A DNA stretch of 46,911 bases from NCBI GenBank assembly GCA_025060325.1, contig JANXBW010000009.1, positions 1 to 46,911 of the forward strand. Direction: 5' to 3'. The position numbers and the translations under genes are program-made. How positions within the stretch are numbered: position 1 is the first letter of the stretch; every line of letters begins with the position of its first letter. Origin of the DNA: Thermoguttaceae bacterium. GTDB lineage: Bacteria > Planctomycetota > Planctomycetia > Pirellulales > Thermoguttaceae. Of the stretch, positions 2,416 through 14,010 are shown one piece after another. The notes under the pieces were generated by a model. That model did no database searches and was not told where the DNA came from. It saw nothing but the letters and a program-made list of their open reading frames with translations.

Positions 2416-3227
2416 GTAGGGTGAATGGGTCCGGAGGGGACCTTCGAAGAGATTCCCGCTACAGTGGGGCACTTCCTCGGGTATCGCCTGTGGGTTCTTG
2501 GAACAGTTTCTCAAAAACCTTCATCCAGAAGCGGTGCGGGCGGTAGCTGCTGTCGGTGAGCTCCTTGCTGGTTCTCTTTAGGCGTAGAGGATTGCCCTCC
2601 TACCCGTCCCCCCAGAACAAATGCCTTGGTAGGCGAGCACTTCCAATGGTGGGGTACTCCGCCAAAGCCTCCAACTCTGCGGGTGGAGGCAGGGGCCTCG
2701 GGGGATCCTGGCGACAGGCTTGGGGTAGGTCACCCGGTCGCCGACGCGCTAATCGTCCGCGGTCTTGGGCAGAGGTCATAGGAACCGGACGACGTTCCCT
2801 TGGTGCCGATTGTACTGGCTGCTATTAAGCAATGGCACATTCCCGCCTAATGGGTTGGCGGTTCTTTTCTTGGCCTGCCGTCAACGCGGTTTGGTAGACA
2901 ATCTCCCTAGTCAGCAAGTGTGCCAAATTGGTTTAGAGGCTGAGGGTGGACCCACGCGTACCCCCCTCGCCGAGCATGCGCGGGCTGGGTTGCGCAGAAA
3001 CTACTTCATCCACACTGGCCAACACTTGGCGGTGGTTGTTCGCAGCAAGGGAGATTCTTAAAATGTAGGCTTTGCGGCGGTCTTAGGCTAGGGGAGGCTT
3101 GTCCCGCCGTGTGCGCCAGTCAAGGAGTTTGCACTTACTTAGAAAGTTGGCCGGGTACGTGCTTTTTGCTTTGTCCGCACCGATCGCTAAGGAATACTTC
3201 GTTGACATCGGCTTTGTTGACCGATTT

Positions 3228-4190
3228 GTGAGAGATTGCCGGTCGGTCTTCTTGGCCGCCGCGAGGGTGCTCATTGTTTTTCTTGTCCTCCATGCGTCCG
3301 GCGGTTGTAACCCGGTTGGCAAAGGAGATCCGAGCCAGCGGCGGTATCCCTTGCGTGTTTTGTGCACGACGGGGATGATCGCCGATGCAGTAAGGGCGGT
3401 GGGTGGGCCGCAGGTGGAGGTGGAGCAGCTTTTGCCGCCGGGCGTCGACCCACATCTTTATCGGCCGAGTGCTCGAGACAAATGGCGGATTAATGCGGCA
3501 GATGTGGTGTTTTTCAATGGGCTTCGGTTGGAAGGTCGACTTGAGCCATTGCTTGTGCGTCGGTCACGGTGGATGCCCGTTTTTGCGGTGACGGACGTCC
3601 TGCGTCGCGATTGTCCCGAGCGGCTTCGACCACTGGATGACAATTCGGGTATCCTTGATCCGCATGTTTGGCTTGAGCTTGAGCTGTGGATTCGTTGCGT
3701 GGATTTTATCGCGGAGTGTTTGGCAAGCGTCGACCCGGCGCATGCCGCAAGTTATCGACAGAGGGCTCAGCTGTACCAGGCGGAACTTCGTCAACTTGAC
3801 GAGTATGCTCGATCACGGCTGAGAGCGATTCCTGAGGAGCGCCGGATGCTCGTGACGACACACGATGCATTTGGTTACTTTGCTCGAAGGTACGGATTGA
3901 GTGTGGCGACCTTGCAAGGTCTAAGCACCGTGGACGAAATCGACCTCGTGACGATGAACCTGTTGATTGAGGAACTTGTAGCACGGCGAGTGCCGGCCGT
4001 GTTTGTGGAAAACAGTGTTTCGCCGCGGGCGCTTGAGGCGGTGGTGGCCGGCTGTCGGGCAAGGGGGCACCAACTGAAGATTGGTGGGATGCTCTACGCC
4101 GATTGTCTTGGTCTGCCGGGCTCTCCCGGGGAAACTTTCCTCGGTGCGTTTCGACACAATGTGGATACAATTGCTGAGGCACTTCGCTAA
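3228..4190 (+). CDS. Metal ABC transporter substrate-binding lipoprotein (TroA/ZnuA/YtgA family)
   Basis: Captures a divalent metal ion outside the cytoplasmic membrane and delivers it to the permease encoded two genes downstream. From the GTG at 3228 the protein opens with an Arg-containing n-region, a hydrophobic stretch (FLAAARVLIVFLVL) and the lipobox-like ASGGC with Cys at residue 27, which is why this start is preferred over the TTG at 3099; the frame is open further upstream. Candidate metal ligands are His76 (GVDPHLY), His146 (DPHVW), His212 (TTHDAFGYF) and Asp292 (LYADCLG), the His-His-His-Asp pattern of TroA-like proteins. About 320 residues, normal for the family. Iron, manganese and zinc cannot be told apart from sequence. 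The ATPase gene follows after 117 bp. Confidence 0.88.
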   Translation: MRDCRSVFLAAARVLIVFLVLHASGGCNPVGKGDPSQRRYPLRVLCTTGMIADAVRAVGGPQVEVEQLLPPGVDPHLYRPSARDKWRINAADVVFFNGLRLEGRLEPLLVRRSRWMPVFAVTDVLRRDCPERLRPLDDNSGILDPHVWLELELWIRCVDFIAECLASVDPAHAASYRQRAQLYQAELRQLDEYARSRLRAIPEERRMLVTTHDAFGYFARRYGLSVATLQGLSTVDEIDLVTMNLLIEELVARRVPAVFVENSVSPRALEAVVAGCRARGHQLKIGGMLYADCLGLPGSPGETFLGAFRHNVDTIAEALR

Positions 4191-4307: not shown

Positions 4308-5075
4308 ATGTCCGCCGACATTGCAGTTGAAATACACGATCTGACAGTGGTTTACCACCGCAAGCCGGTGCTTTGGGATGTTGACGTCTCTGTGCCGGAA
4401 GGTAGGCTTGTGGGGATCGTCGGGCCTAATGGTGCCGGCAAGAGCACGCTGATTAAGGCCGCCCTTGGGCTTGTACCGTTGGTCAGTGGGCAAGTGTGGT
4501 TTTATGGTCGACCGCTTCGCGAAAGTCGTCACCTGGTAGGGTACGTTCCCCAGCGAGAGGCAATCGACTGGGACTTTCCGGTAACCGTGATGGATGTGGT
4601 GCTCATGGGAACGTACGGCCGGTTGGGGTGGGTTCGTCGCCCGGGAAAGGCGGAGCGTAAACTGGCGGAGGACTGCCTTCGCGCAGTGGGCATGGAGCAG
4701 TTTGCCGATCGCCAAATTCGTCAACTGTCAGGAGGTCAACAGCAGCGGGTTTTCCTTGCCCGGGCTCTTGCCCAGCAAGCCAAGATCTATTTTTTGGATG
4801 AGCCTTTTGTAGGCGTGGATGCGGCGACGGAGCGGGCGATTGTGACACTTCTTCAGCAGCTTCGAGAGGAGGGGAAGACGGTACTTGTTGTCCATCACGA
4901 TTTGCAAACAGTGAGGGAATATTTCGATTTTGTCATTTTGCTCAATATGCGCCTGATCGCAGCGGGAGAAACGGCACAGGTGTTTACACCAGAGAATCTC
5001 CGCAAAGCGTATGGTGGACGACTGACGCTCCTTACTGAGGTCGCCGAGGCCGTTCATCGAGGCGGTATCCCTTAG
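4308..5075 (+). CDS. Metal ABC transporter ATP-binding protein
   Basis: Cytoplasmic ATPase that powers metal uptake with the binding lipoprotein upstream and the permease downstream. All nucleotide-binding motifs are intact in this 255-residue protein: Walker [10 protein letters not shown] (39-47), Q-loop Gln82, signature LSGGQQQR (140-147), Walker B IYFLDEP with Asp164-Glu165, and the switch His197 in VVHHDL. The order, length and motifs match the ZnuC/MntA/YtgB group. The permease gene starts 15 bp after its stop, so the two are almost certainly co-transcribed. Confidence 0.94.
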
Positions 5076-5090: not shown

Positions 5091-6389
5091 ATGAGCTACG
5101 TAACGGTCCTCGTGTTGTTGACAACTATGCTTCTCGGAGCCACCAGTGGGCTACTTGGCTGTTTTGCTGTTTTGCGGGGGCGGGCACTCCTCGGGGATGT
5201 GCTGGCTCATGCGGCGCTACCGGGAATTTGCCTTGCGTTCCTCCTCGTTAGGGAGCGGCACTTGGGGGCGCTTTTAGGTGGGGCGATAGTGGCTGGGCTT
5301 TTTGCCATTTTGGTGTTAGGGCTTCTTCGTCGCTTTGTCCGCACAAAAGAAGATGCCGCCTTGGGAATCGTGCTGACAGTCTTTTTTGGGCTAGGGATTG
5401 TGCTTTTGTCGGTCATCCAAAGGTTGCCGGCGGGCGGAGAGCGGGCGGGTTTGTCGCATTACCTTTTCGGGCAGGCGGCAGCCGTCAGTCAGGCCGATCT
5501 GTTTCTCATTTCCGGCGTGGGAGTTGTGGCCGGGCTGACGGTCTTCCTACTTTACAAGGAACTTCTTGTCGTTAGCTTCGACCCTGGTTTTGCCGGGGTA
5601 CAGGGGTGGCCGGTTGCGGCGGTTGATTTACTGCTCTTTAGCCTTATCGCTGTGGTCACGATGATCGGACTGCCGGTGGTGGGTGTGGTGTTGATGGCGG
5701 CCCTATTGATTATCCCGCCAGCGGCGGCCAGGTTTTGGACGGATCGGCTGGGGCAAATGCTTGTTTTGGCCGCGGCGTTTGGGGCACTCGCCGGGGCAGC
5801 GGGGACAATTTTTTCGGCAGGCTTTTTGTCTCCGGGCCGAACAGGATCACATGCCGGTCTTCCCACCGGCCCGATGATTATCCTCACGGGGACGGTAATC
5901 TTTTTGGCGTCGATGCTCTGTGCGCCGCAAAAAGGCCTCCTTTGGCGAGCCGTGCGGTTGATAGGACTTCGTGTACGGACTGCTGAAGAGCATCTCTTGC
6001 GGGAACTATACGAATGTATCGAAGCAGGACTTCCCGACGCAGCCCCGGTAGCGATCGTCACATTGAAGGAGCGACTGAGGTGGTCGGGTGCTGGACTTTG
6101 GACAGTGATCGGCTTAGCTGCAATGCGGGGATTCGTGCGGGCTGAGGATGGGCAACTCCGCTTGACTCCAAAGGGTTTTGAGAAAGCGCGGCAGGTGGTC
6201 CGGGCTCACCGGTTGTGGGAACTATTTCTGATCGAGCAAGCTGGTATTGCTCCCGATCATGTCCACAGGGATGCAGATCAGATGGAGCATCTCCTGCGAC
6301 CGGAGGTCGTAACGGAACTTGAGGAAAAGCTCCAGACTGCCCGGCGCATGGCAGAAGATGCCAAAAAGCTCCCCGCCTCGCCACATTAG
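5091..6389 (+). CDS. Metal ABC permease fused to a DtxR/MntR-type repressor domain (YtgCR-like)
   Basis: Residues 1 to about 290 are a hydrophobic ABC-3 family metal permease with about eight membrane segments and the typical LPVVGVVLMAALLIIPPAAA stretch, ending in CAPQKGLLWRAVR. Residues 297-432 are a soluble DtxR-family domain: a winged helix (about 315-368, ending LTPKGFEKA), then the metal-binding and dimerisation helices HRLWE (373-377) and VHRDADQMEH (391-400). His373, Glu377, His392, Asp396, Glu399 and His400 keep exactly the spacing of DtxR His79, Glu83, His98, Cys102, Glu105 and His106. Asp at the Cys102 position is more MntR-like than iron-type. Chlamydial YtgCR has the same fusion and is reported to be cleaved to free the repressor. 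No second permease gene follows, so the channel may be a homodimer. Confidence 0.92.
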   Translation: MSYVTVLVLLTTMLLGATSGLLGCFAVLRGRALLGDVLAHAALPGICLAFLLVRERHLGALLGGAIVAGLFAILVLGLLRRFVRTKEDAALGIVLTVFFGLGIVLLSVIQRLPAGGERAGLSHYLFGQAAAVSQADLFLISGVGVVAGLTVFLLYKELLVVSFDPGFAGVQGWPVAAVDLLLFSLIAVVTMIGLPVVGVVLMAALLIIPPAAARFWTDRLGQMLVLAAAFGALAGAAGTIFSAGFLSPGRTGSHAGLPTGPMIILTGTVIFLASMLCAPQKGLLWRAVRLIGLRVRTAEEHLLRELYECIEAGLPDAAPVAIVTLKERLRWSGAGLWTVIGLAAMRGFVRAEDGQLRLTPKGFEKARQVVRAHRLWELFLIEQAGIAPDHVHRDADQMEHLLRPEVVTELEEKLQTARRMAEDAKKLPASPH

Positions 6390-6622: not shown

Positions 6623-7060
6623 CTATGAGCTTGACTTTAGTTCAATTTTTACGGGAGCCATGCCCGGCTTGACCTCAATCGTGATGCCTGAGGTCTTTGG
6701 ATTGCCGTACTTCTCCGGTAACAGCGACTTGCGCGGTGCGGCTTCGGTACCTTCCGCGGGGGCAAGCTCTGCCTCGCCTGCCCCGCCACCAGCTTCGACT
6801 TTGGAGACGGCCACGCCGTTCGGTCCGGGCACAGCCTCAATTCGGAAGTTGCCGGATGAATCGGTGGTAGCCGTTACCGGCGAAGCACCCTGGGGTCCCG
6901 TAAACATTACAGTAGCCCCCGGCACCGGCGATCCGTCTAGAAGGACTTGGCCCGTAACGGTGACCGTAGATCGCCCACTGCCGCCGCCGCAGCCCAATAC
7001 AACGAATGCCAGATACGCAGACAATCCTATCACACAGATCCAAATGCGTGTACTGCTCAT
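6623..7060 (-). CDS. Small lipoprotein with carboxypeptidase-regulatory-like fold (pair 3)
   Basis: About 145 residues. The start MSSTRIW at 7060 gives a clean lipoprotein signal (hydrophobic stretch then FVVLGC). The rest resembles the carboxypeptidase-regulatory-like beta-sandwich: VTGQVLLDGSPVPGATVMF and then a DSSGNFRIEAV strand. The C-terminus LLPEKYGNPKTSGITIEVKP ending in VKIEL shares a pattern with the two other lipoproteins of this cluster. It lies 115 bp downstream of a DUF1559 gene on the same strand, so an envelope partner role is likely but unproven. The biochemical function is unknown. Confidence 0.8.
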   Translation of the reverse strand: MSSTRIWICVIGLSAYLAFVVLGCGGGSGRSTVTVTGQVLLDGSPVPGATVMFTGPQGASPVTATTDSSGNFRIEAVPGPNGVAVSKVEAGGGAGEAELAPAEGTEAAPRKSLLPEKYGNPKTSGITIEVKPGMAPVKIELKSSS

Positions 7061-7175
7061 TGACCCCTCCCTCGGCAAAAAACTGGTGCAGGGCTAAAAC
7101 CCGCACCGTTGCACCCAATCGTACAGCTGGTTGCCTATTTGGCCTGAAAAAGGCTGAGTGAGCCAGTGTGACTCG

Positions 7176-8168
7176 TCAGAAGGCGCTCGGTGCCCGGCCG
7201 TCACGGCGGTCTCCGATATACTGGTAGGTCCAGTGATCAATGGTTTGGGAGATGAACCGGACGGAGCCGTCCCCGAACAAAAAGTTGGCACCACCCGGGT
7301 GTTGCGACTTGAAGCCCACCTCAGTATTCCAAGTGCATCGGGCTGCGCAGGCGGTCTTGCCAGCTGCCTGCGCGGAAGCGACATCCGGGTAGCAAGAGTC
7401 GTAGTTAATGGGGATTTGAGTGAACGCCCCCCATTTGTTCGAATGGCTCCAACCGGCCCGCACGTGGTTGGAGCAGTCCACTCGGACTTCGCCTACGAAG
7501 ATTGTATTTGACGTCCCATCAGGAACGTCGGCTATTCTGCAAACAAAGTTCCAGCCATTTCGCGTAAATGGCCCTGCAGGATTGTTGGAGTCGGAGTTCG
7601 TATTCGAGTAACTTCGCCACATGGAGTATTCCGGACACGAGCAATTGGGATTGTCCGAAATCGAGTAGGTCGGCCCCATAGACGGATAATAGTTGGACAC
7701 CTGCACTTGGTTGGGGACCGAGCCTAGCTTTCGGTTGCTATTGTCGGTTGGGCAAAGGTAAACAGGGATCGTAATCGACAACAAGAGAGTATTGCCATCC
7801 TGGAAGGGAGTACTTACCCGCAAATTGTCCGTACAGTTGCGAAAATCAAATAATTGGAACACTTGTTGTTGTTCCAAGAAGGGCAACAACCGCACATGCA
7901 TCGAACCCCGGTTGTTTACAGGACCTAAGCCGTAATCAGTGCCGCCGTGGAAGACCGCACCCGGCGGGAACGATCCGTTGACGTCATGGTACGCATGAAG
8001 AGCAATCCCAATCTGCTTGAGGTTGTTAGTACACTGTGAGCGCCTGGCTGCCTCCCTGGCGGCCTGCACCGCTGGCAGAAGCAACGCTATCAAAATGCCA
8101 ATGATTGCGATGACGACCAGAAGCTCAACCAAAGTAAAGCCGCTGCGACGTAAATGAGCCCTTCGCAT
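7176..8168 (-). CDS. DUF1559 (SBP_bac_10) protein with prepilin-type N-terminus (pair 3)
   Basis: The start at 8168 is fixed by AGGAGG seven bases upstream and by the sequence itself: MRRAHLRRSG followed by [20 protein letters not shown], a type IV prepilin leader cut after Gly, then the planctomycete hallmark [22 protein letters not shown]. The remaining ~270 residues are the DUF1559 domain, with the typical closing motif HPGGANFLFGDGSVRFI. Such proteins are predicted to be processed by prepilin peptidase and held at the cell surface or in pseudopilus-like assemblies; no molecular function is established. The lipoprotein of pair 3 follows, and the lipoprotein of pair 2 lies upstream. Confidence 0.93.
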   Translation of the reverse strand: MRRAHLRRSGFTLVELLVVIAIIGILIALLLPAVQAAREAARRSQCTNNLKQIGIALHAYHDVNGSFPPGAVFHGGTDYGLGPVNNRGSMHVRLLPFLEQQQVFQLFDFRNCTDNLRVSTPFQDGNTLLLSITIPVYLCPTDNSNRKLGSVPNQVQVSNYYPSMGPTYSISDNPNCSCPEYSMWRSYSNTNSDSNNPAGPFTRNGWNFVCRIADVPDGTSNTIFVGEVRVDCSNHVRAGWSHSNKWGAFTQIPINYDSCYPDVASAQAAGKTACAARCTWNTEVGFKSQHPGGANFLFGDGSVRFISQTIDHWTYQYIGDRRDGRAPSAF

Positions 8169-8413
8169 GTCAAGACCTCCTCGTGACAAGACTGTTTGGA
8201 CACCCCAGTTCTCCGAACAGAGCCGCCTCCGGAAAGACGGCCCTTGGTACTCCCGAAATATAATGCTATTCCGGGGCCCCGCCGACAGCAAGGAGACGAC
8301 GGGATTTTTCCGAAAAATTCGGCCGGAAGCTGGCCCGCTTGCAACCACTAGGTCATGGCCCCGGTTACCGGATTGCCCTACCCGCCACCTCAACTAACCC
8401 GCCAAAGCGCGCC

Positions 8414-8815
8414 TTAAGGAGCTAACTCGATTGTGGCCGTATTCGGGCCGGGCTTTATTTCCACCCGGAGTTTGCTTGCGCCTTGGTCGTAACATTCAGG
8501 GGGGACGTTGGGGTCCTGCCCGGATCCGGCAGCGGGGTTATCCGGGTCACCCACTGTTTTAGGGGCCAGGAAAACCACGTAGGTCCCCACCTCTGCGTTT
8601 TCCACCCTGAAAGACCCATCCGGGGCAAGCTCCGCGGCTAGGGCTTTGCCAGTTTTTTGATTGATCAAGTTTACCCGGGCATTGGAGAAAGGTTGGCCTT
8701 TAAGCGTTAACTTCCCTTCCAAGCTGCCGACTGGGGGGCCTTGGGTGCACCCGGCCAACGTGAGTGCCAGTACCGTAACGAGCACTCCGACAGTAACTGC
8801 GCGAAGGACTGACAT
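8414..8815 (-). CDS. Small lipoprotein with carboxypeptidase-regulatory-like fold (pair 2)
   Basis: 133 residues. It has a GGGAGG ribosome-binding site, a signal VLVTVLALTLAGC with lipidated Cys at residue 23, and a short beta-sandwich domain (GSLEGKLTLKGQPFSNARV, then PDGSFRVENAEVGTYVVFL). The C-terminal block VPPECYDQGASKLRVEIKPG ending in ATIEL matches those of the two sibling lipoproteins, with Cys in place of Lys. It starts 57 bp after the stop of the pair 2 DUF1559 gene, so the two are probably co-transcribed. It is likely anchored in the membrane facing the periplasm; its function is unknown. Confidence 0.82.
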   Translation of the reverse strand: MSVLRAVTVGVLVTVLALTLAGCTQGPPVGSLEGKLTLKGQPFSNARVNLINQKTGKALAAELAPDGSFRVENAEVGTYVVFLAPKTVGDPDNPAAGSGQDPNVPPECYDQGASKLRVEIKPGPNTATIELAP

Positions 8816-8872: not shown

Positions 8873-9901
8873 TTACGGCACATTGACAGGGAGACCGTCG
8901 TAACGAACGGCTAGCCTGCTTAAGGTTTCGTATTCGATCGTGTCGCTGATGAACCGCACGGAACCGTCGACTAGCACCACGTTGAGGCCGCCCGGGTGCT
9001 GCGAGTTGATAATCGTGTTGTTGGCATATGGTCGATTGGCACCGGCCGGAGCGTTGTTCCGCCCAAGAGGTGCCACTTGGAGGTTAGGCTGGTAGCGGAT
9101 GCATGTAACCCCGGTGACCCACAGGTCGCTGCAACTTACCCGTGGCGGCTGGGGGTTACGGGCACCATACCAACCACCGTAGTAGTTAGCAGTGATGTTG
9201 TCATTACCCACAAGTCCCGACTGTTCAATAACAAGGAACGTGTTCGACGTGCCATCGGTGGCATCGGAGAATCGCCAGGGTTCATTTGGCGTCAACATCC
9301 CGTTGTCGCACACCCGGCCGCCATAAATGTCGCAGCTGTAAACGCCCCGGTTAGGATCGGGACCCGGGCAGGGCATCGCTCCCATGCAGCCAACGTAGTG
9401 AATGTTCAGCGCATAATCTCGGTTATTTCCATTTGGCGGGTTATCGAAAGGCAGGATGGTGCTCGATGGGCATTGATAAATCGGCACCATATATCGGCGC
9501 AACACTTGGCAGGAACCGGTGAAGCCAGGGATCCCCGCGCCTGGACCGCCGGCACCGAAAAGGTCCGACGTTCCGTCATTAAATCTTAGCTGTTGGAAGA
9601 CTGCTCCCTGCTCGATCCAGGGAAGGATAGCTGTCCTCCAGTTGGTGCCGTTGGACGGCCACACCCGCGCCGCGTTAACACTCCACGTGCCCATCGGCAG
9701 CACTTTGTATGTGTTTTCGTAGTTGTGCATCGCTAAGCCGATCTGCTTCAGATTGTTTGTACACTGCGAGCGGCGTGCTGCCTCGCGGGCGGCTTGAACA
9801 GCCGGCAAAAGTAGCGCGATCAATATGCCTATAATCGCGATGACCACAAGTAATTCGACGAGCGTAAATCCGTGAGAGCGGGGGATCTTGCGATACGTCA
9901 T
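8873..9901 (-). CDS. DUF1559 (SBP_bac_10) protein with prepilin-type N-terminus (pair 2)
   Basis: The start at 9901 (MTYRKIPRSHG) has AAGGAGAG upstream. The prepilin leader [20 protein letters not shown] and the segment [22 protein letters not shown] are almost identical to those of its two paralogues in this window, while the following ~280 residues diverge and contain Cys-rich loops (CPGPDPNRGVYSCDIYGGRVC). It ends with the family motif [20 protein letters not shown]. The domain is diagnostic of planctomycetes, and the leader implies processing by prepilin peptidase. Its partner lipoprotein follows 57 bp later. Confidence 0.93.
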   Translation of the reverse strand: MTYRKIPRSHGFTLVELLVVIAIIGILIALLLPAVQAAREAARRSQCTNNLKQIGLAMHNYENTYKVLPMGTWSVNAARVWPSNGTNWRTAILPWIEQGAVFQQLRFNDGTSDLFGAGGPGAGIPGFTGSCQVLRRYMVPIYQCPSSTILPFDNPPNGNNRDYALNIHYVGCMGAMPCPGPDPNRGVYSCDIYGGRVCDNGMLTPNEPWRFSDATDGTSNTFLVIEQSGLVGNDNITANYYGGWYGARNPQPPRVSCSDLWVTGVTCIRYQPNLQVAPLGRNNAPAGANRPYANNTIINSQHPGGLNVVLVDGSVRFISDTIEYETLSRLAVRYDGLPVNVP

Positions 9902-10952
9902 GATCGTCTCTCCTTGCTCTTTTGGTCTGATCCCGTTTATCTGTACCGAAATACATATAGGCAATTTGTTCACACGCCGCGGTGAGGATCAGGCAATTCG
10001 TTCGCGGCTTGTTGAGTTTGGTGGGCGGGGATTAGGGCAATCCACGGTTTTTTCGCGGTCACCGATATCGGCAGGTTCATCGCCGAAGCTGGGTGAGCCA
10101 AGTGGGGATCAAAAATCGTCTGCCCGCTTAATGAAATACCTGCGTAGACCGATGTACTTATATCCCTGGGAAACGTTCCAGTCAATTTCCGATTTGCGCA
10201 AAAAAATGACGATTTTGCGACGTGGAACCCCTTTGGGAATGGAAGCCCTGGGAGGTTAGTGTCCTTGGATTACGCTCGCATCGGTTCGGAGGCCCGCACG
10301 GGGACGTGTTTCGCTAAGCGTCCTGAAGAGGGGCAGGCAGGCCGCACTTATTCCGGGCCGCGTTAAAAAGTTCCGAAAAAAGTTGGCGCAAGGTTTCTCG
10401 AGGATTCGGCCGTGTCGTATCCTTTTCCTTCCGGGCGAGCAACCGGAGAGTTTGCCCCCCGAGATGGCCTTTCTATCTTTAGCGGAGCCGTCGGAAAGGT
10501 TCTAAAGGCCACTGTTTCTTTAAAAAGCCCGGGCCCTTAGGCGGCAGATAGGTGAAGGGGCAAGTACGGGGTGACCCACTAGGCGAGTGCCAAGGGTGAA
10601 GGCACACCTCCGCGAGGGACATGACGTTTCACATGACGCCAGGTAGATTGACTGGGGGAGAGATCTGCCCCTTAAAGAGGGGTGGCGAGCAAGTTCTACG
10701 AGGGAGCGGATGAGCGCGCGATCTGCTAATCAGTTGCGCGAAGGCTCCAAAAAAAAGGGAGGCTTCCCGTTTGTTAGTCGGGAAAGCCCCCAGCTGACTT
10801 TGGCCCAGGAAAACCGGCTTTTAGTGCGGTTCTAACAATTCACCCTGCGTCTCTTTTGGCCCTAAAGGCAAGCATGGCCTTTTACGGTGGCGGAGACGAC
10901 CTCGCAAGGACCGACCATCAGTCGGGCGAAATTCCCTTGTCAGAGGCCTGGA
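9902..10952. other. Gene-free stretch between DUF1559 pairs 1 and 2
   Basis: About 1.05 kb without a credible gene. The right third holds a rho-independent terminator for the minus-strand pair 1 transcript (10749-10791). The left end must hold the pair 2 promoter; TTGCCT and GATAAA can be found 17 bases apart on the minus strand upstream of 9901, but the match is weak. The middle (10260-10740) shows nothing I recognise. Confidence 0.5.
10749..10791 (-). terminator. Rho-independent terminator after DUF1559 pair 1
   Basis: On the minus strand, GGGGGCTTTCCCG pairs with CGGGAAGCCTCCC across a nine-base loop and is followed by eight T. It lies about 160 bp past the stop of the pair 1 lipoprotein gene and separates pair 1 from pair 2. 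Confidence 0.85.
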
Positions 10953-11423
10953 CTAGTTGGAAAGGTCGATATTGAAGGTGGTATCCTTTGCCTCCATTTT
11001 GAGTCGCAAAGGTGATCTAGCGGCATCGGCGTACTTTTCGGGCAGTTCGCTCTTCGCCACGGGTGCTTGGGCTCCTTCTTCCGGAGGCGTGTATTCTCCT
11101 CCCGCCTGGGTCGCTTGCGCGGCGGGTTGAGAATACTTTGTCACTCCTACGGAATATTCACCCGGCGCGAGCTTGGCGGAATAGCGGCCTTGAGCGTCGG
11201 TTTTCGCTGCCTCAGCACGCGCGCCCTGTTGCGGGTCGATGGGGCTAAAGATCACGTTTGCTCCCTCGACGGGTTTCCCCTGATAGGTGACAACGCCGCT
11301 AACTGAATAAGTGGCAGGCCCGCCTCCGCTTGGCTGGCAACCGGGACTAACGGCCAGCACCACGCCGAAGGCTACCACCAAAGCCAACCCAGACCAGACG
11401 AGCTTGGAGCAAGTACTCAACAT
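10953..11423 (-). CDS. Small lipoprotein with carboxypeptidase-regulatory-like fold (pair 1)
   Basis: About 156 residues from the ATG at 11423; an ATG 15 bases upstream (11438) is possible but has no better ribosome-binding site. The signal LALVVAFGVVLAVSPGC supplies a lipidation Cys. The body has YSVSGVVTYQGKPVEGANVIF and AQGRYSAKLAPGEYSVGV strands, the same short beta-sandwich as the two siblings, then a Gln/Ala/Gly-rich stretch and the closing ELPEKYADAARSPLRLKME pattern. It follows the pair 1 DUF1559 gene by 381 bp, a much larger gap than in the other pairs, and is followed by a strong terminator. Confidence 0.8.
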   Translation of the reverse strand: MLSTCSKLVWSGLALVVAFGVVLAVSPGCQPSGGGPATYSVSGVVTYQGKPVEGANVIFSPIDPQQGARAEAAKTDAQGRYSAKLAPGEYSVGVTKYSQPAAQATQAGGEYTPPEEGAQAPVAKSELPEKYADAARSPLRLKMEAKDTTFNIDLSN

Positions 11424-11804
11424 CGTGTATGTCCCCATCCCAATTGTCTACATGTTTTCATCAACCGCCTCTAACGGCCCTCGGGTCCGACAAACCTTGG
11501 TGACCGTGGCCAACTTGTTCCACCGGGCCAGGTGGTTAGAGGGCCCGCTTGTCACTTTCGCGCGTCCCCAACCGACAAACCTGCCGCGGAAGCGACATCG
11601 GGCCCCGCCCGCCGCTGCACAAGCAGCTTTCTCCGGGCCTTCCAAAATTACGAAGCCCATCCGTGGGACAGGGTAGAATCCGGAAGGTTGTGCTCTGCAA
11701 CGGTCTCCGTGTTCCAAACGCCTGGCTGCCAGCAAGCAGCAACTAAATCACTGCTTTCCGAGATATCGCCGGATGTACAACAGCCGACAACTCGTAAACA
11801 CGCT
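11424..11804. other. Gap between DUF1559 gene and lipoprotein of pair 1
   Basis: 381 bp with no gene. A plus-strand frame of 409 codons (11532-12761) runs through it, but this is the antisense shadow of the DUF1559 gene. I see no terminator, so read-through from the DUF1559 gene to the lipoprotein gene is possible. Confidence 0.45.
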
Positions 11805-12923
11805 TCACGGAGACACAGCAACGGCCTCTCCACCCGCCTTGGAGCCCAACGCGCCCCAAACACCGTAAACGCTCGGCCCGGTGCTGGGCTGTTGAACGGC
11901 CAAGTTGCCCGCATCGATCGAGTCGCTGATAAACCGCACCGACCCGTCAGCCAAAAGCACGTTGACGCCACCCGGGTGCCGGCTCGAAGGCGGAATCACA
12001 AGACTGTTCTGGTCGCGCCAAGTGGTGGTGTCCTCAGCGCAGGCCGGAGAATTCGGCGGAAGCACTGTGTTGAAGGCTACGATCGTGGGCTGGCCGTCCG
12101 TCCACCGCCGCCCAAACGGGCAAATTACCCGAGCCCCAGAGACAAAGTACTTTCCGTCGCTTGCAGCGCGGCAAACAATCGGGGAAGCGGTAAGGCCACT
12201 AACGCCGACAGCTTGTCCCTGAACGTGCTCAATCTGGCGGGCTTGCACCGTAAGAGCATTCCCGGAGCTGTCATAATTGTCGGGCAAGCGCGCGTTGCAA
12301 ATGCGCTCGCTCATGGCCACGGTGTTGCTGGTGCCGTCCAAAATATCCGGGATCCGGACAGTCCGCTGATACGGGAACAATCCGCGGACATCCGTAGCAT
12401 CGCGGACAGTGGCCACTTGATCCCCGATCGAGAAGGCGTACGAGTTGTAAGGGCCCCGGTTATCTGGGTACCCGTTATCGGACGGGCACAACAGCACGTT
12501 TGGGGAGTCATCCCAGACGGGCCAACTTTCCCAACCTGCGGGGCCACCCGGAGAGATGGAATTTCCTGGCTCCCCAGCCCGGATTGCCTCAAACATAGGT
12601 GCCTGCTCGAGATAGGGCAGCAACGGGATGAATCCGCTAAGCCGGTTGCAGTTTCCGTTTCTCCGCGAACCATAGCTCGTGGTTACAGTCGTGCAGGCAC
12701 CACTCCCGCCCTTTCGTGCAGGAAACGTCTGATAACTATCGTGGTAGTTGTGGAGTGCTAGGCCGAGCTGCTTAAGGTTGTTCGTGCACTGGGAGCGGCG
12801 AGCTGCTTCCCGGGCAGCTTGCACTGCCGGTAATAACAACGCGATTAAGATTCCGATAATAGCGATAACGACAAGTAACTCCACGAGTGTAAACGCACTT
12901 CTCTTGCTCTTCGTACCGCTCAT
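11805..12923 (-). CDS. DUF1559 (SBP_bac_10) protein with prepilin-type N-terminus (pair 1)
   Basis: The start at 12923 ([10 protein letters not shown]) has GGAGG upstream. Here the residue before the conserved [20 protein letters not shown] is Ala rather than the usual Gly, so processing by prepilin peptidase may be less efficient; the Glu at position 5 of the mature part is kept. [22 protein letters not shown] follows. About 370 residues in all, ending with the family motif [20 protein letters not shown] and an extra ~40-residue tail. It is the first of three DUF1559-lipoprotein pairs read leftwards. A perfect hairpin lies about 100 bp upstream (13025-13042). Confidence 0.93.
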
Positions 12924-14010
12924 AACTGACCCTCCTATTTTGCCGAAACCACGCGACACCACAGGATGAACAAGCTGGGAGACTGACAGCGTCCGCGAAT
13001 TGCCCCTGCTTTGCACCCCCACCTATTCCCCGACGGGGGAATTACCTATGGACCGGTCACAAAAAAGTACATGAACCCCGTTTGGCCCTCTTGCGCAGCA
13101 GGCGCTCACCAGGCTGGCCTCTCCCAGTTGGCTGGAATCAAGGGAGGAAACGCCTGAACGGAGCGGCCCGAGCTTTACTAACGGTACCCCCAACTACTGC
13201 TTGGTATGGTCCATGGGAAGGCTCCCCCCAAGGCAATCCCCCCTTCAGTATTTGCCACTCTCTTGGCTTTGTCAAGCGCCTTGTGACGAGATTTCGGCGA
13301 GGATGAAGATATGCATTTGGAATAGTCGCCGCTGTGCCGAGCGGACTGCTCTGTGACCCGCCGGTTCGAAGTTTTTTGGGGTGGCACACGTCGGCAAGGC
13401 CTTGCGGATCACTTTGCCTGGCCACACTGTTCCGGCGAAGGCCGGTGTTGATGCCTCACCTGATTGACCCCAAATCCTGAGCGCCTCGGTGCGTTTCTTG
13501 TTTAGGCCGCCACTAAGCGATTGTCACCTTAGGATGAGACAGCGGAGATGGGCTTCGTGAGGCGAGTCTTCTGCGCTCTGGTGGGACTAGCCGACAGGTT
13601 GGCCCAAATTTGGTGGCGTGGAGAGCGATTCTTGCCCACAAAGTAGCCGTTACGCACTAGCAGACAAACCCTGCCATGCAAACCCGATTTTTCCCAAAGT
13701 TGTTTGGACTAAGCCAGGCTTTGGTCTTGCTGGCTGGCGTCACTTGCCTGGGTAATGAGTCATTGTGTTACGGGTTTACAGTGAAGCGCTCGACGTTTGT
13801 TTAAAACGGCGGCCGGCATGCGTAGGCTCCCGATTACCTGATAATATCCGGCCGCCAAGAAACTCGGATGCCGATTTTTTGATTGATAGGCTTCTCTAGG
13901 CTGGCCCCCAAAGGTGAAGCACCCGAGCGGAACGTTGCTTTACCTAAGAAATGCCCGCCGTTGTGCGGGAGTTCAGGTGGAACCTTGCCAAGCCCGATAT
14001 GTCAGCCGGA
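12924..14010. other. Gene-free stretch between topA and the DUF1559 cluster
   Basis: About 1.1 kb. ATTCCCC-GACG-GGGGAAT (13025-13042) is a perfect hairpin upstream of the DUF1559 gene, in the promoter or leader region. GGCGGCCGG (13808-13816) and CCGGCCGCC (13848-13856) form a 9-bp stem with a 31-base loop and, on the minus strand, GTTTTAAAC after it; it lies about 155 bp past topA and could end that transcript. Otherwise nothing recognised. Confidence 0.5.
13808..13856 (-). terminator. Possible topA terminator or 3' hairpin
   Basis: A nine-base perfect stem with a long 31-base loop downstream of topA. The T-tract after it on the minus strand is short and interrupted (GTTTTAAAC), so termination is uncertain. 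Confidence 0.35.

Follow-up and report, generated by a model that had tools for sequence, protein, structure and literature searches.

The tail fused to the permease of a metal importer in the window, the whole analyzed stretch of 46,911 nucleotides from a Thermoguttaceae bacterium contig (JANXBW010000009.1), keeps the metal-binding and dimerization surfaces of the DtxR family and has lost the DNA-reading surface, which favors a sensor acting on the importer. Judged from sequence, the chances are about even that this tail is a metal sensor and dimerization module feeding back on uptake by a cluster-9 importer (Mn, Zn, or Fe), and not a DNA-binding repressor. A preliminary description had read the gene as a transporter that delivers or tethers its own regulator; that part is weakened by the degenerate helix-turn-helix (HTH) of the tail in the window and its relatives, and the description as a whole is partly supported. 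Since the DNA-reading part of the sensor has decayed, control of the transporter is more likely than the switching off of genes.

The fusion gene (5091..6389, + strand, as are all its parts) is a single open frame of 432 amino acids. Its ABC-3 permease domain (residues 5-277, 5103..5921; PF00950, E = 2.6e-61) matches the manganese permease 7kyo_C with an E value of 3.1e-35. The permease is followed by a remnant winged HTH (wHTH; residues 299-357, 5985..6161) without a PF01325 match, whose helix 1, bearing His301 at a ligand position, is conserved and whose helices 2 and 3 are not; alignment to DtxR places the degenerate recognition-helix segment WSGAGLWTVIGLAAMRGF here (residues 331-348, 6081..6134). 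The DtxR-type metal-binding and dimerization domain (residues 359-416, 6165..6338) was identified by Fe_dep_repr_C (PF02742, E = 1e-17) and by the ligand columns. The best sequence matches of the C-terminal 146 amino acids were DtxR structures (1f5t, E = 4.4e-10), and Pfam gave no FeoA/SH3-type third domain in the fusion. The window gene thus combines an ABC-3 permease and PF02742 in one frame, as YtgCR-type proteins do, and its tail has the PF02742 domain and ligands of DtxR/MntR proteins without their PF01325. AlphaFold2 run on the single window sequence returned a mean pLDDT of 46.6, and the predicted structure was therefore neither searched nor used. A sequencing error joining two genes, which had been named as a possible undoing of the fusion, is very unlikely and was rejected because the same fusion recurs in many genomes.

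The six metal ligands named in the preliminary description were borne out in every position and in their constant offset of 294: His373, Glu377, His392, Asp396, Glu399, and His400 align with the ligand residues 79, 83, 98, 102, 105, and 106 of DtxR. A further ligand position, Met10/Asp8 of DtxR/MntR, which had not been noticed before, is His301 in the window. The window tail therefore resembles DtxR, IdeR, and MntR in its metal-binding and dimerization half and its ligand positions, where His stands in for Met10 and Asp for Cys102, whereas it differs from them in being fused to a permease and in its unconserved recognition helix. Intact ligands, found in the window tail and in 11 of 14 tails of its permease type (type A; the second permease is type B), bear out this part of the earlier proposal that metal sensing is probably intact.

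Across the A tails, the Glu83, Glu105, and His106 positions are kept in 11/14 and most ligands are lost in three (L043, L044, and L049); the His98 position is Asp in 12/14 and His in the window and its congener. Among the B tails, the residues matching His79, Glu83, His98, and His106 do not vary (16/16), unlike the one at Cys102. All 57 chlamydial tails have the positions of DtxR 79, 83, 98, 102, 105, and 106 and the His of a DPH motif invariant; at the Met10 position, the 18 tails of the Chlamydiaceae type have His and the 39 others Asn. A conserved SPH motif near the C-terminus of A-type tails (window residue 432), with its His present in 11/14, aligns with DPHGxxIP of B, chlamydial, and free proteins, and this His may be a further ligand. 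In the first set, a Glu at the Cys102 position of B accompanied every lost or degenerate A tail (4/4; L043, L044, L049, and L051) and 2/10 of the intact ones. Compensation between the A and B copies was not supported, as the wider set pairs many intact A tails with an acidic B.

The earlier view of a complete DtxR/MntR-like domain holds for the metal-binding and dimerization half (PF02742) and fails for the DNA-binding half, in which PF01325 went unrecognized. The window protein gave no PF01325 match at E ≤ 1 or at E ≤ 10. PF01325 matched none of 14 A tails, one of 16 B tails (E = 0.046; probably row L053 of genome G029), none of 37 further A/B tails, and at most one of 57 chlamydial tails, for which it was not among the best 25 of 51 families, listed down to those with single members. 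PF02742 matched every one of these tails (14/14, 16/16, 37/37, and 57/57). As a control, PF01325 was found in 30/30 free DtxRs drawn by PF02742, the HTH being unused in the drawing; these are the better PF02742 scorers, 26 planctomycete proteins plus four from other phyla, and possibly a favorable sample. They were taken from 37 free loci, of which L218 was spurious and L209, L217, L222, L246, L249, and L252 gave no frame by pattern. A second control, 18/18 free DtxRs drawn by PF01325, is circular. No PF01325 match over the cut-off was listed at a permease fusion among 40 genomes.

The recognition helix was compared at matched divergence, in pairs whose metal halves are 60-70% identical. Identity in the free DtxRs was 0.57 (133 pairs, PF02742-drawn) and 0.85 (34 pairs, PF01325-drawn), versus 0.18 in the window family (12 pairs), 0.32 in other A tails (75 pairs, leaving out the three with lost ligands), and 0.31 in B (41 pairs, without L318 (3269), labeled B and probably a truncated A). 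Chlamydial tails of the non-Chlamydiaceae type gave 0.23 (334 pairs), and the Chlamydiaceae type, taken as tails containing the letters EYF, gave 0.61 (68 pairs), an alignment-sensitive value (0.61, 0.48, and 0.61 in three alignments) where other groups barely shifted. Within the six-member window family, mean pairwise identity was 21% in the recognition segment versus 66% in the metal domain, and Trp made up 0.167 of the recognition segment versus 0 in free DtxRs. Helix 1, which bears a ligand position, had a mean identity of 0.48-0.79 in the fused groups. Free planctomycete DtxR-FeoA proteins such as L063 share the ligand set and helix 1 with the window tail but differ from it in having a canonical SPGTVTSMLKTL recognition helix and a FeoA domain.

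The segment is also uneven in length, with fewer than 50 residues in 9/57 chlamydial and 1/14 A tails, compared with 56-63 in the 18 free rows and 34-70 in the 30 PF02742-drawn free rows, the value of 34 probably coming from a row with a cut start (L245). Between the window species and its congener, the A tails are identical at 15/44 wHTH positions (dN 0.81) and 40/56 metal-half positions (dN 0.22), and the B tails at 15/44 (dN 1.15) and 40/56 (dN 0.19), with dS saturated in these segments. In close pairs, the dN/dS of the wHTH segment was below 1 wherever dS was finite; the segment is identical in the B pair L308/L312, and the chlamydial pairs L254/L259 and L230/L270 had dN ratios of 1.5-1.7, compared with 0.9-2.4 in five free pairs. 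The wHTH is thus no junk sequence: it is under constraint in close pairs, and in some fused pairs its rate of change does not exceed that of free DtxRs. Profile-profile alignment of fused against free domains runs through the wHTH (98.7%, 118 columns, and 99.7%), so that the winged-helix fold probably survives with another surface. A-type tails outside the window family show an RSWS...L...GLV-like pattern with a mean net charge of about +3, and such tails could bind nucleic acid.

In the window, the gene order is substrate-binding protein (SBP), ATPase, permease. The ZnuA/MntC-like metal-binding SBP (3099..4190, +; PF01297, E = 3.7e-71, residues 87-361) probably has its true start downstream of 3099 and matches the NCBIfam MntC/AztC models below their cut-offs; the importer ABC ATPase (4308..5075, +; PF00005, E = 8.7e-30) has MnTportMntADein as its best NCBIfam model, again below cut-off. 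Because the manganese and zinc models match only below cut-off, the imported metal is Mn, Zn, or Fe, with no choice among them. The earlier statement that a second permease is missing is correct within the window, where none adjoins the fusion as in YtgCR-type loci, but not for the genome. A PF02742 search of the window genome (95.6% complete) returned two matches over the cut-off, the window gene and a gene on contig C14 encoding 485 amino acids with ABC-3 and PF02742, which is an orphan second permease (B) with its own DtxR tail.

Among the 16 A loci read (window and relatives), B adjoins A in 13 and lies elsewhere in three (window, G001, and G025), and SBP and ATPase homologs stand upstream in all 13 adjacent loci. 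Thus, SBP-ATPase-A-B is the common arrangement, which is split in the window species. No homologs of the window ATPase or SBP were found near B in the fetched 15-16 kb of the window species (G000) and G001. Nor did the window genome, at 95.6% completeness, contain a free DtxR or any PF01325 match over the cut-off; it has two intact Fur-family frames, on C20 and C8, which could serve transcription. A third Fur-family match over the cut-off (G000:C28:20248-20541, L299) carries two in-frame stops. The promoter searches were weak tests: no palindrome by the criteria used preceded the SBP gene in G000, G001, or G002, those at the two B loci reached scores of 9 and 8, where the shuffle maxima were 9, no 11-mer was common to the A and B promoter regions in G000 or in G001, and the promoter scan gave nothing above shuffles.

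The fusion was found in Planctomycetota, Chlamydiota, and one Kiritimatiellae genome, a distribution that fits an old PVC trait, in agreement with the ancestral origin suggested earlier. Outside the order of the window species, 14 of the 20 additional planctomycete stretches fetched, and one Kiritimatiellae genome, have A and B fusions side by side; the A locus of G034, at a contig edge, was left out of the pair fetching. PF02742 matches were present in 126/140 Chlamydiota genomes, in 124/140 within a frame of at least 393 amino acids, and in at least 90 of 148 sampled Planctomycetota genomes, fused and free proteins mixed. The 57 chlamydial tails analyzed, a part of the Chlamydiota frames, are what remained of 62 frames found after removal of two identical proteins, the spurious L243:536-928, and L284 and L238 with ambiguous letters. 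In the permease tree (69 rows), a starred branch (99/96) separates 18 A permeases and 14 chlamydial YtgC from B, chlamydial YtgD, and six unfused permeases of the ordinary kind. The window permease, as placed by this tree, is orthologous to YtgC, which upholds the proposed kinship with chlamydial YtgCR. The chlamydial YtgD genes read are without a DtxR tail, and two A genes (L051 and L052) also have none.

Two B-type genes, L053 and L054 (G029 and G039), carry an extra C-terminal tail stretch, and no A-type permease stood beside them in the fetched 15 kb. One scan of viral contigs yielded 41 stretches matching a pattern, none of which was confirmed. On plasmids, 1264 records had a permease match, two of which cover at least 80% of P0001 in one place (H3, Halomonas, and H12, Pantoea); H3 has no annotated feature at the permease match.

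Orthologs of permease-repressor fusions have been reported in 11 phyla, a finding credited to Thompson 2012 in a review (PMC5599777), and the fusion is therefore not a discovery of this window. We found no description of a sensor on both permeases or of general HTH decay in the literature covered; Thompson 2012 and Akers 2011 lay beyond that scope, and an earlier mention is possible. YtgCR of C. trachomatis (CT069/CTL0325) resembles the window protein in its ABC-3 permease with a PF02742 tail, its side of the tree, and its intact ligands. It differs in that the wHTH segment of Chlamydiaceae-type tails is conserved in a form of its own (KYQEYFG..FPRFR type), which is absent from the window, and in that chlamydial YtgD has no tail whereas the planctomycete second permease has one. 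Reports of repression and cleavage were found for Chlamydia only in the sources consulted. In C. trachomatis, YtgR is reported to be a DNA-binding repressor (PMC6504234, PMC7755916), with operator-dependent repression in an E. coli reporter system and, in that system, ChIP recovery on its own promoter (PMC6504234), and YtgCR is reported to be cleaved (PMC5599777, PMC7755916). The C. trachomatis YtgR tail (L293, whose species we infer because its Trp content of 2.44%, its 66 Leu residues, and its WWW motif agree with PMC7755916) has no PF01325 match either, so that an absent match does not exclude DNA binding. As the Chlamydiaceae-type tails keep their wHTH segment conserved, DNA binding may be real there. 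A Waddlia ChIP-Seq study of ten regulators including YtgC, which in the portions available presents motifs only for Euo, HrcA, and PhoB (PMC4989314), is neutral here.

The main rival to an importer-directed sensor is a YtgCR-like repressor, in which the tail would be cut from the permease and, metal-bound, repress the operon. The orthology with YtgC, the intact ligands, and the alignment through the DtxR N-terminal region, where a winged-helix fold probably remains, are all consistent with this, as is the C. trachomatis precedent of cleavage and operator-dependent repression (PMC7755916, PMC6504234, PMC5599777). However, a recognition helix that is degenerate, in the window family Trp-rich, and without a PF01325 match argues against it, as do, weakly, the missing palindrome upstream of the SBP gene and the missing common 11-mer. 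For the window, we regard a released repressor as unlikely.

According to the preferred reading, in which the tail senses metal for the importer, the window gene would encode one of the permease subunits of a cluster-9 metal importer, namely A, on the YtgC side. By analogy with other cluster-9 importers, A and B would form a membrane dimer with two ATPase copies and the tail would be cytosolic, which would bring two sensor tails close to each other on the cytosolic side. A rise in cytosolic metal would load the tails and make them pair, and the paired tails would restrain the permease/ATPase cycle, thereby slowing uptake. Such feedback would be trans-inhibition, similar in logic to that reported for MetNI and ModABC, where cytosolic substrate-binding domains dimerize and uptake stops (PMC10710835), and would be built from a DtxR fold. 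The likeness is confined to this proposed logic: MetNI and ModABC carry the regulatory domain on the ATPase, whereas the window domain sits on the permease, and PF02742 was absent among the 25 of 27 families listed for the window ATPase.

The retention of PF02742 while PF01325 is all but missing across the fusions, together with a recognition helix less conserved in most of them than in free DtxRs, speaks for this sensor, as do the short wHTH of some chlamydial tails, the divergence of the wHTH relative to the metal half between the window species and its congener, the ligand conservation in chlamydial and B tails, the grouping of tethered sensors, and a genome with two intact Fur-family frames and no free DtxR over the cut-off. 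Against it stand the DNA binding and repression reported for C. trachomatis YtgR, the constraint on the segment in close pairs, and the RSWS...L...GLV-like pattern of other A-type tails. Conservation of the segment in Chlamydiaceae-type tails is also on a par with that in PF02742-drawn free DtxRs (0.61 vs. 0.57), and three of 14 A tails are without most ligands and two more A genes without a tail. Because the chlamydial YtgD genes read have no sensor, a mechanism in which two tails of the same transporter pair cannot hold universally. The conserved ligands and changing wHTH surface would also fit a metal-dependent scaffold, which recruits a protease or chaperone when metal-loaded or accepts cytosolic metal, with no direct gating; controlled proteolysis of metal transporters has been described (PMC10710835). 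No partner was identified, sequence data alone cannot separate a scaffold from direct gating, and we consider a scaffold rather improbable.

A repressor that binds DNA while still attached to the permease is highly improbable: full-length YtgC also repressed an E. coli reporter, though it was cleaved there (PMC5599777), but the tail shows the same HTH decay, and the orphan B would probably need its own operator, of which the weak test found none above shuffles. A vestigial tail without function is scarcely credible, given six ligand positions invariant in 57/57 chlamydial rows and a slow-evolving metal half, even though some A orthologs have lost most ligands (L043, L044, and L049) or the tail (L051 and L052).

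Extended beyond the window, the sensor reading is put forward tentatively, with rather less than even confidence. The fusions of Planctomycetota, the Kiritimatiellae genome seen, and most Chlamydiota would be metal-gated importers and not transcription factors. The two halves of such an importer, which in Planctomycetota usually have a tail each, would bear a DtxR sensor that lacks the DNA-reading part and forms one clade with Feo tethered sensors; the YtgR repressor role would be a later or secondary specialization of Chlamydiaceae. Should relatives throughout the superphylum retain the sensor while giving up the DNA-reading helix, controlling the importer was probably its original task. The sensor reading thus offers a testable metal-feedback mechanism for cluster-9 ABC importers, and it would justify a fresh look at the workings of YtgR.

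In a tree built from 67 sensor domains (81 columns, with poor internal resolution), the A, B, and chlamydial tails group with three TM-DtxR-FeoA proteins, and the branch parting these tethered sensors from free DtxRs (94/86) is not starred. One TM-DtxR-FeoA protein, P0002, stands before a frame with FeoB-like G motifs. This position and the joint grouping suggest that transporter-attached DtxR sensors are a recurrent design. Pfam was applied to P0002 and L248 only, and PF01325 was weak in both (E = 0.11 and 7.7e-6, respectively). An N-terminal hydrophobic segment, a DtxR-type metal domain, and FeoA are combined in L055 (4912-5943, -), which has a FeoB-like frame downstream, and in L248 (1204-2211, +) and L240 (801-1895, +); such proteins look like Feo-linked tethered sensors.

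Elsewhere in the window, a phage-integrase-family gene (10-729, +; PF00589, E = 1.3e-20) lies beside a tRNA-Lys gene (934-1008, -), and the two possibly mark where an integrated element ends, upstream of the metal operon. On the other side of the fusion gene, three DUF1559 pseudopilin-like genes (7176-8393, 8873-9973, and 11805-13022) are interleaved with small proteins on the - strand between 6623 and 13022. CarboxypepD_reg matched two of these small proteins over the cut-off (6623-7078 and 10953-11438) and one below it (8414-8815).
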